Assembly: GCF_019039215.1 (NCBI RefSeq)
Contig: NZ_JAHNZZ010000003.1
Location: forward strand, 166,637-230,636
DNA from: Bacillus sp. FJAT-29790
Lineage (GTDB): Bacteria; Bacillota; Bacilli; Bacillales; Cytobacillaceae
Reading direction: 5' to 3'
Length of the DNA: 64,000 bases
The notes beneath the pieces are model-generated. The model ran no database searches and had not been told where the DNA came from. It worked only from the letters and a program-made list of their open reading frames with translations. Shown here piece by piece: positions 28,141-51,904 of this stretch (its first letter is position 1; each line of letters begins with the position of its first letter). A program made the position numbers and the translations under genes.

Positions 28141-28469
28141 ATTCCCAGCCTCTCTATTACAGTCACTATGATTCCCCCTATTATTAGCATGAGCAAAGTA
28201 GCCTACCTAATCTAACTAAGAAGTTTTGGCTATTCAGAAAAATCCATGAAAATAGGATTTAATCTATTCTTTTGTTCTAACCCATTGGATGCTCATATAT
28301 CGATAATTTTATTCGTTCTAAAGAACGAATAGTCATAACTAAAGACGCCGCTCAAAAAAAGAGCGACTCTCCTATTTCATAATTTACAAAAATGAAGCCA
28401 TTTATTTATTTTAATATTTTAATTCTGGTAGGTCCTTCTTTATATATTCTTTTTCCATTTTTTACGAAA

Positions 28470-28540
28470 GGGCATCTAACCCGTCCTCACAGCATGATCG
28501 AGTACCTCCATTAATATTGTTAAGGAGACATCACCATTAA
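28470..28540. repeat. Island duplication, copy 1
   Basis: GGGCATCTAACCCGTCCTCA, CAGCATGATCGAGTACCTCC and AAGGAGACATCACC each recur with few changes and in the same order at 45780-45895. The second copy carries about 48 extra bases after the first block. Confidence 0.75.
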
Positions 28541-45672: not shown

Positions 45673-46140
45673 ATCCCCCCCTCCTTTCATATAGAAAAGA
45701 TGCAAGCATATCCTTTCTTCATTTTTGAAAACTTTCATGAAACGATTTCAATCAATCATTTCATGAAAACTTTCAAAATTGGGCATCTAACCCATCCTCA
45801 CACCACACTACCGACGACTAGCATCTAAGGTCTTCCAACCCACAGCATGACCGAGTGCCTCCATTGATAAAGGTAAGGAGGCATCACCAACGATAAAACA
45901 AACAGGTTCTTAATAAAGAACAAAATGAATAAAAAAATAGTTTTACTGCATTTGAATAGGGATAACTTCATATGCTTGAGCAATATGTGGAATCAATCGG
46001 ATAATAGCTAGGAATTGTTACCTAAATTAGAATATGGTTTTATTTCTTATTTAAGAACAGTTTTTTCGTTTTAACATAATTTACAAAAGTATCCTAATCG
46101 AATCGTTCATTTGAATTAGTGAGGGGGAAAAATAAATACA
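45673..46140. other. Right junction of the polysaccharide island
   Basis: About 470 bp without an intact gene. It includes the second copy of the island duplication (45780-45895) and a degenerate segment (about 45990-46060) weakly similar to 28630-28690. The operon promoter must lie here or in the extended upstream region; no box pair was convincing. Confidence 0.55.
45780..45895. repeat. Island duplication, copy 2
   Basis: GGGCATCTAACCCATCCTCA, CAGCATGACCGAGTGCCTCC and AAGGAGGCATCACC match copy 1 at 28470-28540 in order and orientation, with about 48 bases extra in this copy (roughly 45801-45848). Confidence 0.75.
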
Positions 46141-47903: not shown

Positions 47904-47935
47904 TTAAAAAAAGATCGGAATTCATTCCGATCTTT
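47904..47935 (-). terminator. Intrinsic terminator 30 nt upstream of the SufR-like gene
   Basis: On the minus strand AAAGATCGGAAT pairs with ATTCCGATCTTT around a minimal loop, followed by a run of seven Ts. It lies after the structured element below yutE and only about 30 nt before the regulator's ATG, so it either ends yutE or attenuates the regulator. Confidence 0.8.
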
Positions 47936-47936
47936 G

Positions 47937-48119
47937 AAATCAAATTCGCCTTGGCGTACTTGCGCCCAGATTTTCACCTTAGCTTGCTAGGTAAGTTCCA
48001 TTAAAAAATCTGTGGCTTAACTTTATTCATCCGGGGGTTGAACCCCCACTAAATTGGATTCCTATCTAATTCATTCACCACTTATAGAAGTGGAAGACTG
48101 CTGAATAAAGTTAAACCCC
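47937..48119 (-). repeat. Structured 3'-end element, copy 1 (after yutE)
   Basis: On the minus strand a 13-14 bp helix (TTAACTTTATTCA with TGAATAAAGTTAA) encloses CCACTT-CTAT-AAGTGG and GGGGGTTCAACCCCC hairpins. A second domain has CAGATTTT pairing with AAAATCTG around an ACCTAG-CAAG-CTAAGGT stem, then GGCG-N6-CGCC. It starts 3 nt after the yutE stop. Copy 2 lies at 50979-51176. Confidence 0.8.
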
Positions 48120-50942: not shown

Positions 50943-50974
50943 GAAATCGGCGAAATGGCCGATTTCTTTTTTCT
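50943..50974. terminator. Terminator of the DUF3905-like gene
   Basis: GAAATCGG pairs with CCGATTTC around CGAAATGG, then a T run on the plus strand. On the minus strand it closes the structured element that follows yutD. Confidence 0.85.
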
Positions 50975-50978
50975 CCAT

Positions 50979-51176
50979 ATCAAATTCGCCTTGGCGTATT
51001 TGCGCCCAGATTTTTATCGAGCTTGCTCGATAAATTCCTTTAAAAAATCTGAGGCATCCGCCGGAGGCTTAACTTTATTCAGTCCGGTTTGAAACCCCAC
51101 TTAAATGGATACCTTTTTGCATTCATCTCGCTACTTATAGAAGTGGGACACTTCTGCTGAATAAAGTTAAAACTCT
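50979..51176 (-). repeat. Structured 3'-end element, copy 2 (after yutD)
   Basis: Same architecture as copy 1. TTAACTTTATTCAG pairs with CTGAATAAAGTTAA around an AGAAGTG-TCC-CACTTCT hairpin and GGTTTCAAACC. Then CAGATTTTT...AAAAATCTG encloses TTTATCGAG-CAAG-CTCGATAAA, and GGCG-N6-CGCC closes. It begins about 10 nt after the yutD stop on the same strand. Stem bases differ from copy 1 in a pairing-preserving way. Confidence 0.8.
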
Positions 51177-51486: not shown

Positions 51487-51904
51487 TATCTTGTATCTCT
51501 TAGGATCATTTATTAGAAGGCTGTTTTCGTAAAGTTTGTCGCTTTTATTATGCGGTTTTTATTTAATAATCTGAGTTGATTGGAGCGGAGGGCACTTGAC
51601 TCCTGCGGGAATAGAGGGAAGCGGGAGACCCCACAGGCAGTTAACGCCGAGGAGGCTCCCGTCCCTCCCCGCGGAAAGCAAGTGCCCGCAGCGGAAATCA
51701 ACGGGAAAACTTTGTATGCTAAAACAACAATATAGCGAAAACAGCCTATTAGAAATATTTGTCTCTAAAAACCGTGCATTCTTGAGCGGAAACTAACTAC
51801 ACACCTATTTGGAAAAAAAGCAAAGCTTAAATTAAATTATAACTGATTCTCCATCAATTACTAAGAGAAAAAAATATTTACCTGGTCATTCTATAAAAGA
51901 GGAG
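51487..51904. other. 418-bp spacer between yutD and yutC
   Basis: Most of it is repeat family A copy 3 (51516-51750). The remaining 150 bp upstream of yutC is AT-rich; a sporulation promoter would be expected but was not identified. Confidence 0.55.
51516..51750. repeat. GC-rich intergenic repeat family A, copy 3 (inverted)
   Basis: The reverse complement matches copy 1 almost base for base across GTTGATTTCCGCT ... CGGGCACTTGCTTTCCGCGG ... GACGGGAGCCTCCTCGGCG ... CCCGCAGGAGTCAAGTGCC, without the 62-bp insert. Both ends carry the AGGCTGTTTTCG / CGAAAACAGCCT arms, so the whole unit is an inverted repeat. Confidence 0.88.

Follow-up and report, generated by a model that had tools for sequence, protein, structure and literature searches.

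The 64,000-nt stretch of the Bacillus sp. FJAT-29790 genome analyzed here (the window) contains two copies, alignable with each other and in the same orientation, of a non-coding, dispersed element measuring about 195 bp. We consider it likely that they belong to a non-autonomous, PATE-like mobile element of the IS200/IS605 type, which carries no transposase and is moved by a putative Y1 transposase acting in trans. An initial annotation of the window had described two folded copies in one orientation, as the alignment bears out, and had proposed either selection on RNA structure or a mobile element that targets gene ends. Mobility is upheld by element-free sites in sister species, fixed borders, and high copy numbers that are not confined to a single genus.

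The borders of the window copies (Table 1) were set by a profile. The strand reading TTTAAC...TTTGAT, termed top strand in the following, is the minus strand in the window. On this strand one copy starts 7 nt after the stop codon of a HepT-like gene (Pfam name; yutE in the initial annotation) and the other 15 nt after that of yutD; the initial annotation, using wider borders, correctly placed both starts shortly after a same-strand stop codon, at distances of 3 and 10 nt. Copy 2 shares 87–100% identity with the 40 scored matches in its own genome, itself included. A 26-mer from the tail of the element occurs twice in the window and never in 100 shuffled versions. Both strands of both copies fold more stably than all 200 shuffled sequences (z-scores of -4.2 to -5.5), so folding alone does not reveal the strand. 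The window also contains a second dispersed repeat of approximately 250 bp (51505-51755, including GAGTTGATTGGAGCGGA) that has three further own-genome copies at 92–93% identity and is matched many times in congeners, as well as matches to the epsC RNA (RF01735) at 45780-45889 and 28469-28536 (minus strand), the second of which is shorter than usual.

Table 1. Coordinates of the element copies, their parts, element-free sites and nested motifs. Plain numbers refer to the window; L and G designate loci and genomes; empty sites are listed under the position of the filled S. terrae copy.
Feature	Position	Strand	Remarks
Copy 1	47939-48115	-	177 nt; TTTAAC...TTTGAT; part of hairpin 2 missing
Copy 2	50979-51171	-	193 nt; orientation as copy 1
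Left-end TTTAA, copy 1	48111-48115	-	read by comparison with Siminovitchia empty sites
Left-end TTTAA, copy 2	51167-51171	-	read by the same comparison
Hairpin 1, copy 2	51069-51170	-	outer stem TTAACTTTATTCAG(C)/(G)CTGAATAAAGTTAA around the left-end hairpins
Left-end subterminal hairpin region, copy 2	51126-51155	-	AGAAGTG/CACTTCT; alternative CACTT/AAGTG
Hairpin 2, copy 2	50988-51068	-	GCCTCCGGCGGATGCCTCAGATTTTT.../...AAAAATCTGGGCGCAAATACGCCAAGGC
Right-end imperfect palindrome, copy 1	47942-47961	-	AAGTACGCCAAGGCGAATTT; fold weaker
Right-end imperfect palindrome, copy 2	50982-51001	-	AAATACGCCAAGGCGAATTT; 3 nt from 3' tip; one stem mismatch
Empty site	L143:1002		pentamer TTTAA in G062
Empty site	L143:3787		pentamer TTTGA in G062
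Empty site	L141:2012		pentamer TTTGA in G073
Empty site	L141:4940		TTTAA in G072, TTTGA in G073, TTTTA in G071
Empty site	L143:3250		GTTGA in G062; filled copy reads CTTAA
Empty site	L152:6967		TGCAA in G073, TGTAA in G072
Bacillaceae-1 within copies, other genera	L094, L138, L158, L161, L185, L198, L201, L219, L220	same as element	

On the top strand, the predicted fold consists of hairpin 1, with an outer stem of TTAACTTTATTCAGC/GCTGAATAAAGTTAA enclosing smaller hairpins, followed by hairpin 2 and the right-end imperfect palindrome, which overlaps the foot of hairpin 2. Palindromes thus stand near both termini, with 79.6% of the cells paired in the left hairpin and 97.5% in the right palindrome of 40 aligned sequences. 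A profile search of 80 loci of the own genome plus the window yielded 102 matches, 82 of them full length. These loci surrounded those of 100 listed places where the tail 26-mer matched with no or one mismatch, whereas places with two or three mismatches were included only if they fell inside such a locus; five places of the first kind (C4:22587, C4:23653, C4:65940, C5:67282, and C7:18643) were left out. Exact TTTAAC starts were found in 53 and exact TTTGAT ends in 69 of the 82 full copies, the remainder mostly having near or shifted forms of these ends, and the sequence outside is unrelated. The 237 full matches in the loci examined measure 150–200 nt, too short to encode a transposase; a possible open frame on the top strand ending in IWAQxRQGEFD was dismissed because it is disrupted in copies that differ in length by one base. 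Among the matches listed, internal-deletion forms and remnants consisting of hairpin 2 only also occur. The ends are not inverted repeats of each other (TTTAACTTTATTCAGC compared by eye with the reverse complement of the other end, ATCAAATTCGCC). Nor was a target duplication detected in the 82 copies, of which a single one had a flank match of 3–6 nt (shuffled pairings gave a mean of 2.27 at 3 nt and still reached 1 at 6 nt). A classical MITE was rejected, as both terminal inverted repeats and target duplication are absent.

The mode of insertion could be read from Siminovitchia terrae, whose loci were compared with four congeners. Six of 12 full copies in four loci gave a usable element-free site in a sister species, each with a pentamer at the place of the element's 5' TTTAA directly followed by the right flank; no such site was obtained for L152:3887, L152:5500, L141:4409, L174:952, L174:3240, and L174:6822. 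TTTAA or TTTGA occupied four of the six empty sites (one of these in two of three relatives) and the other two were mismatched, one of them (TGCAA/TGTAA) being a poor fit to TTTRA. Since the empty sites hold a pentamer where the TTTAA stands, the latter is most simply a retained target and not a duplicate, and the target looks like the pentamer TTTAA/TTTGA. By analogy to these copies, the TTTAA at the 5' ends of both window copies is probably likewise a retained target pentamer and not element DNA. Relatives from the own genus, about 70–83% identical in the yutD-lipA region, were too diverged to yield empty sites for own copies. The copy at L141:4940-5134 is located directly upstream of an apparent tmRNA gene, which we take to be ssrA from its 5' sequence.

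The element is abundant in more than one genome. The 4.55-Mb own genome contains at least 132 matches to the tail 26-mer with up to three mismatches, divided between the two strands as 63 and 69, and none to the reversed 26-mer. In S. terrae, 57 copies (47 full) were found in 400 kb, corresponding to about 750 copies or close to 3% of the genome if this sample is representative; it comprised 20 stretches placed at round coordinates of contigs on which matches had been detected before. The same approach applied to 20 stretches of the own contig C1 gave eight copies (six full) in 399 kb and an estimate of about 91 per genome, below the 132 pattern matches. Among the matches listed, the exact 29-base tail is present in Siminovitchia, Bacillus norwichensis, Fredinandcohnia, Schinkia azotoformans, Amphibacillus sediminis, an Alkalihalobacillus macyae MAG, Cytobacillus depressus, Peribacillus huizhouensis, Lederbergia citrea, and others. 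A shorter tail pattern with up to two mismatches was found in 13 of 61 genomes including the own one, though in several of these the one or two matches, all with mismatches, may be due to chance. Transport as plasmid or phage cargo was rejected, as neither 72,556 plasmid records nor the phage records contained a match at an E-value of 1e-5. Three IMG/VR contigs carry a copy, and in two of them (L240 and L242) the flanks are those of the S. terrae locus L134. Five element strings of 15–17 bases did not occur in the literature searched, which comprised few subscription papers and thus leaves their absence unproven.

The orientation of the copies bears directly on the first proposal of the initial annotation, according to which the element would be a cis-acting RNA (in 3'-UTRs, 5'-UTRs, or between cistrons) whose structure is selected on the mRNA, for example for transcript stabilization or operon spacing, and whose orientation is dictated by genes. 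At first sight the own genome agrees with this: based on our own gene calling, 56 of the 82 full copies lie with and two against co-directional gene pairs. A further 17 are situated in divergent gaps, five in convergent gaps, and two overlap predicted ORFs. The initial annotation had asked whether every copy is placed behind a stop codon in one orientation; the 17 copies in divergent gaps and the two against co-directional genes show that this is not the case. Gene-relative orientation can, however, mimic RNA selection when genes and replication run together. With the replication terminus placed at approximately 1.27–1.40 Mb of C1 by GC skew and gene strand in the 20 sampled stretches, the TTTAAC strand is the lagging-strand template, or in other words lies on the leading-sense strand, in 68 of 72 matches of the own loci on C1 and in 57 of the 60 full ones. 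The gene-neutral divergent gaps of C1 favor the replication orientation by 13 to 2 (10 to 2 for full copies). In S. terrae, 52 of 57 copies have the TTTAAC strand on the lagging-strand template, divergent and convergent gaps together are replication-oriented by 22 to 4, and three of three copies between lagging-strand genes, a small number but one where genes and replication are opposed, follow replication; gaps with neutral or opposing genes sum to 25 to 4. Intergenic TTTRA sites are nearly equally frequent on both strands (612 and 559). Orientation thus follows replication where the two influences are separable, and RNA selection does not account for it. On C1, none of 46 co-directional placements of full copies is between two lagging-strand genes although about seven would be expected; selection against antisense placement therefore probably adds to the replication effect.

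The next start codon is closer to the copies (median 45 nt, n = 73) than to random intergenic TTTRA sites (165 nt, n = 629), and 36% of 61 copies (31% when the 5-nt target is allowed for) lie within 10 nt of a stop codon, compared to 11% of 567 random TTTRA sites. The proposed targeting of gene ends is thereby supported as far as proximity to codons is concerned, but the target itself looks like a pentamer. We read this placement as survival away from promoters and coding sequence; the alternative is a real preference for such positions. Hairpin terminators at the far end (47913-47932 and 50943-50966), regarded by the initial annotation as a shared part, fall outside the element, and a terminator function was rejected on these grounds. 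The far 45-nt flank folds at -8 kcal/mol or better in 10 of 81 own copies, compared to 4 of 81 after shuffling and 9 of 82 for the other flank, and in 35 of 82 own copies it contains a Shine-Dalgarno sequence and a start codon.

The initial annotation had taken paired changes in the stems as a sign of selection on RNA structure or of a mobile element. Both sides of a stem had indeed changed together between the two window copies, but CTAGGT stands opposite ACCTTAG in only one of the 41 own copies with this arm (at 47939), while the opposite arm is of the CTCGAT class in 30 of the remaining ACCTTAG copies and of another variant in 10; the inner GGGG/CCCC hairpin, also cited, has two-sided changes at one of four pairs. 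Other stems do covary across genera. In an alignment of 40 sequences (39 of 42 picked at <86% identity and the second window copy; L019, L134, and L205:4743 were left out as short), two-sided changes affected 18 of 54 proposed pairs, a number equalled by one of 500 shuffles with a statistic that ignores relatedness and a structure drawn on one alignment row, which favors the structure. They occurred at six of nine pairs of the left-end hairpin (helix 2) and at four of 15 pairs of the outer stem of hairpin 1 (helix 1), whereas the right-end palindrome is too conserved to show much covariation, with one copy having CTCC/GGAG for CGCC/GGCG. The number of further pair types did not exceed that in shuffles (114 of 500). 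Sliding the structure by -1 still gave 17 two-sided pairs, but only 43% of the cells were paired as opposed to 89%. Covariation across genera is expected both for RNA and for single-stranded DNA hairpins that a transposase recognizes. Top-strand mismatches also point both ways: G-T exceeds A-C outside the outer stem (88 vs. 42), whereas A-C exceeds G-T within it (24 vs. 7). A comparison with Rfam, suggested by the initial annotation, returned no gathering-level match over either window copy, nor over the element in L009, L027, L002, and five other loci, with the exception of Bacillaceae-1 nested within the element in L094. A cis-acting RNA would agree with the gene-relative counts, the nearby start codons, the covarying stems, and the G-T excess, and 40–51% of the bcr repeats of B. 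cereus are transcribed according to the accessible part of one report (PMC3446304). Against it stand the replication-oriented gaps of S. terrae, the orthologous sites without copies, the A-C excess in the outer stem, and the Rfam result, and we deem this explanation very unlikely.

A parent element was sought at transposase genes and upstream of partial copies. The own genome encodes a single, RAYT-like Y1 transposase (Pfam Y1_Tnp, G000:C4:216311-216640, locus L081), and no TnpB was matched in it at an E-value of 0.001. S. terrae has an IS200-like TnpA gene at G061:C12:346820. The Y1 gene is preceded by GGTGTCAGGCACC palindromes. A composite of REP sequences moved by this resident RAYT gene, or a MITE, would agree with the high copy number, intergenic location, and hairpins of the element. 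However, the palindromes at the RAYT locus are different ones, the 3.3-kb locus contains no copy, and neither inverted ends nor duplications were found, so that we regard such an origin as most improbable. Across relatives, Y1 genes were detected in 43 of 61 genomes and tail matches in 13; no clear association follows from these numbers, and a link between the element and Y1 genes was thus rejected. Viewed from the other side, 13 of 17 genomes with tail matches (two of which, G021 and G069, look like one genome) encode a Y1 transposase, while G013, G028, G063, and G070 do not. In G021, a congener of the own genome that is apparently Cytobacillus depressus, the Y1 gene has the same coordinates as in G069. 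G028, a single contig of 99% completeness, has 11 tail matches with up to two mismatches but no Y1 gene at an E-value of 0.001. Whole or partial copies were present in six of 20 Y1 and 30 TnpB loci (L256, L258; L338, L344, L350, and L363). In a search of these 50 loci that was not exhaustive, neither matching ends around a transposase gene nor palindromes related to IS605-type transposons were found, and the 3' flanks inspected at TnpB genes lack element ends, which led us to reject TnpB-linked ends. For 48 copies reduced to hairpin 2 (16 from the own genome, 32 from elsewhere), up to 1.6 kb of upstream sequence contained no gene-bearing form; at least nine of them had <100 upstream bases covered. 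Left-arm motifs more than 250 nt away from such copies belonged to other full copies (L014, L042, and L149, the last assigned from its tail position) or were due to chance (L030). As the checked loci hold no parent, the mover is perhaps lost or acts from afar.

The missing parent IS, the inconsistent occurrence of Y1 genes, and the state of G028 would also be explained if the element were spread by a single-strand enzyme other than Y1, or by a host function acting on single-stranded DNA of the lagging strand. Yet Y1 transposition of the IS200/IS605 type agrees with the insertion site, the missing duplication, the palindromes at the ends, and the strand bias, and copies in genomes devoid of Y1 genes may be relics of a lost transposase. 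We therefore hold this alternative to be quite unlikely.

Some copies in other genera are themselves interrupted. Bacillaceae-1 (RF01690), a separate 67-nt motif listed as an RNA motif of Bacillaceae in the accessible part of PMC2864571, was matched on the strand of the element in nine of 10 loci, nearly all of which had been picked for apparent splitting. In seven of these the element continues on both sides of the motif, which lies in the loop of hairpin 2, except in L138, where it separates the two hairpins. For L185 and L220, just the tail side of the element is seen at the edge of the locus. Neither window copy contains a match. Elsewhere in the window, a Bacillaceae-1 match at 2228-2354 extends over 127 nt, compared to 67 nt in the model, its loop being broken by about 60 nt of other sequence. 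Given the nested arrangement, Bacillaceae-1 may be a mobile repeat in its own right, and an Rfam "sRNA" family inside mobile DNA bears on how such RNA families are read. A more far-reaching interpretation, unlikely in our opinion, would combine an orphan class of elements, filling several Bacillaceae genomes by means of a lagging-strand integrase different from the IS200-type Y1 enzymes, with a role of the element as landing platform for Bacillaceae-1, which would then be a mobile repeat and not an ordinary small-RNA gene.

The favored explanation, IS200/IS605-type mobility, builds on a published mode of transposition. As stated in the accessible parts of PMC6006769 and PMC7290912, insertion by IS200/IS605 enzymes takes place 3' of a tetra- or pentanucleotide; it creates no duplication, involves no inverted repeats, and relies on hairpins near both ends as well as on the lagging-strand template. 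The TTTRA-like empty sites, the lack of duplications and inverted ends, the end hairpins, and the bias toward the lagging-strand template are the marks of this "peel-and-paste" transposition, with the qualification that one IS605 set, with 10 of 22 on the leading strand, was not biased (PMC7290912, accessible part). By this mechanism, a putative Y1 (HUH) single-strand transposase supplied in trans would bind the hairpins at the ends while replication forks expose the top strand as lagging-strand template. Cuts behind the left TTTAA and the right TTTGAT would follow, and the excised single-stranded circle would be pasted 3' of another TTTRA. The intergenic locations after stop codons and before ribosome binding sites would mostly represent what survives selection in a dense genome, and any effect on host mRNA would be secondary. 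If so, transposition of single strands at replication forks provides the structured intergenic repeats of Bacillus relatives with a mechanism that can be tested, and hundreds of insertions per genome constitute a natural set for reading lagging-strand exposure.

Compared to known systems, the element is ordinary in kind and unusual in its copy number, spread, and missing parent. With IS608 and ISDra2, members of IS200/IS605, it shares insertion 3' of a tetra- or pentanucleotide, the lack of duplication, end hairpins, and the lagging-strand template (PMC6006769, PMC7290912), but it has neither the tnpA nor the tnpB carried by IS200/IS605 elements. The bcr1/bcr repeats of the B. cereus group are, in the accessible parts of PMC6542083 and PMC3446304, likewise intergenic, 100–400 bp long, and endowed with mobile features; bcr1 reaches up to 130 copies in one strain and is associated with a TTTAT motif, in contrast to the TTTRA pentamer here, a distinction drawn from published descriptions. 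Closest are the PATEs of Haloquadratum walsbyi, which according to the available part of PMC3119063 also lack terminal inverted repeats and duplications, have palindromes near their ends, are non-coding in size and high in copy number, and are mobile although intact IS200 transposases are scarce in their host. Small repeats insert in palindromes of PATEs, comparable to Bacillaceae-1 in hairpin 2. PATE palindromes are related to those of IS605-type transposons (PMC3119063, same part), whereas no IS605-type element with ends matching the element described here was found at the loci checked. Moreover, PATEs are archaeal, while this element belongs to Bacillaceae, has a long structured interior, and attains a higher estimated copy number in S. 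terrae.
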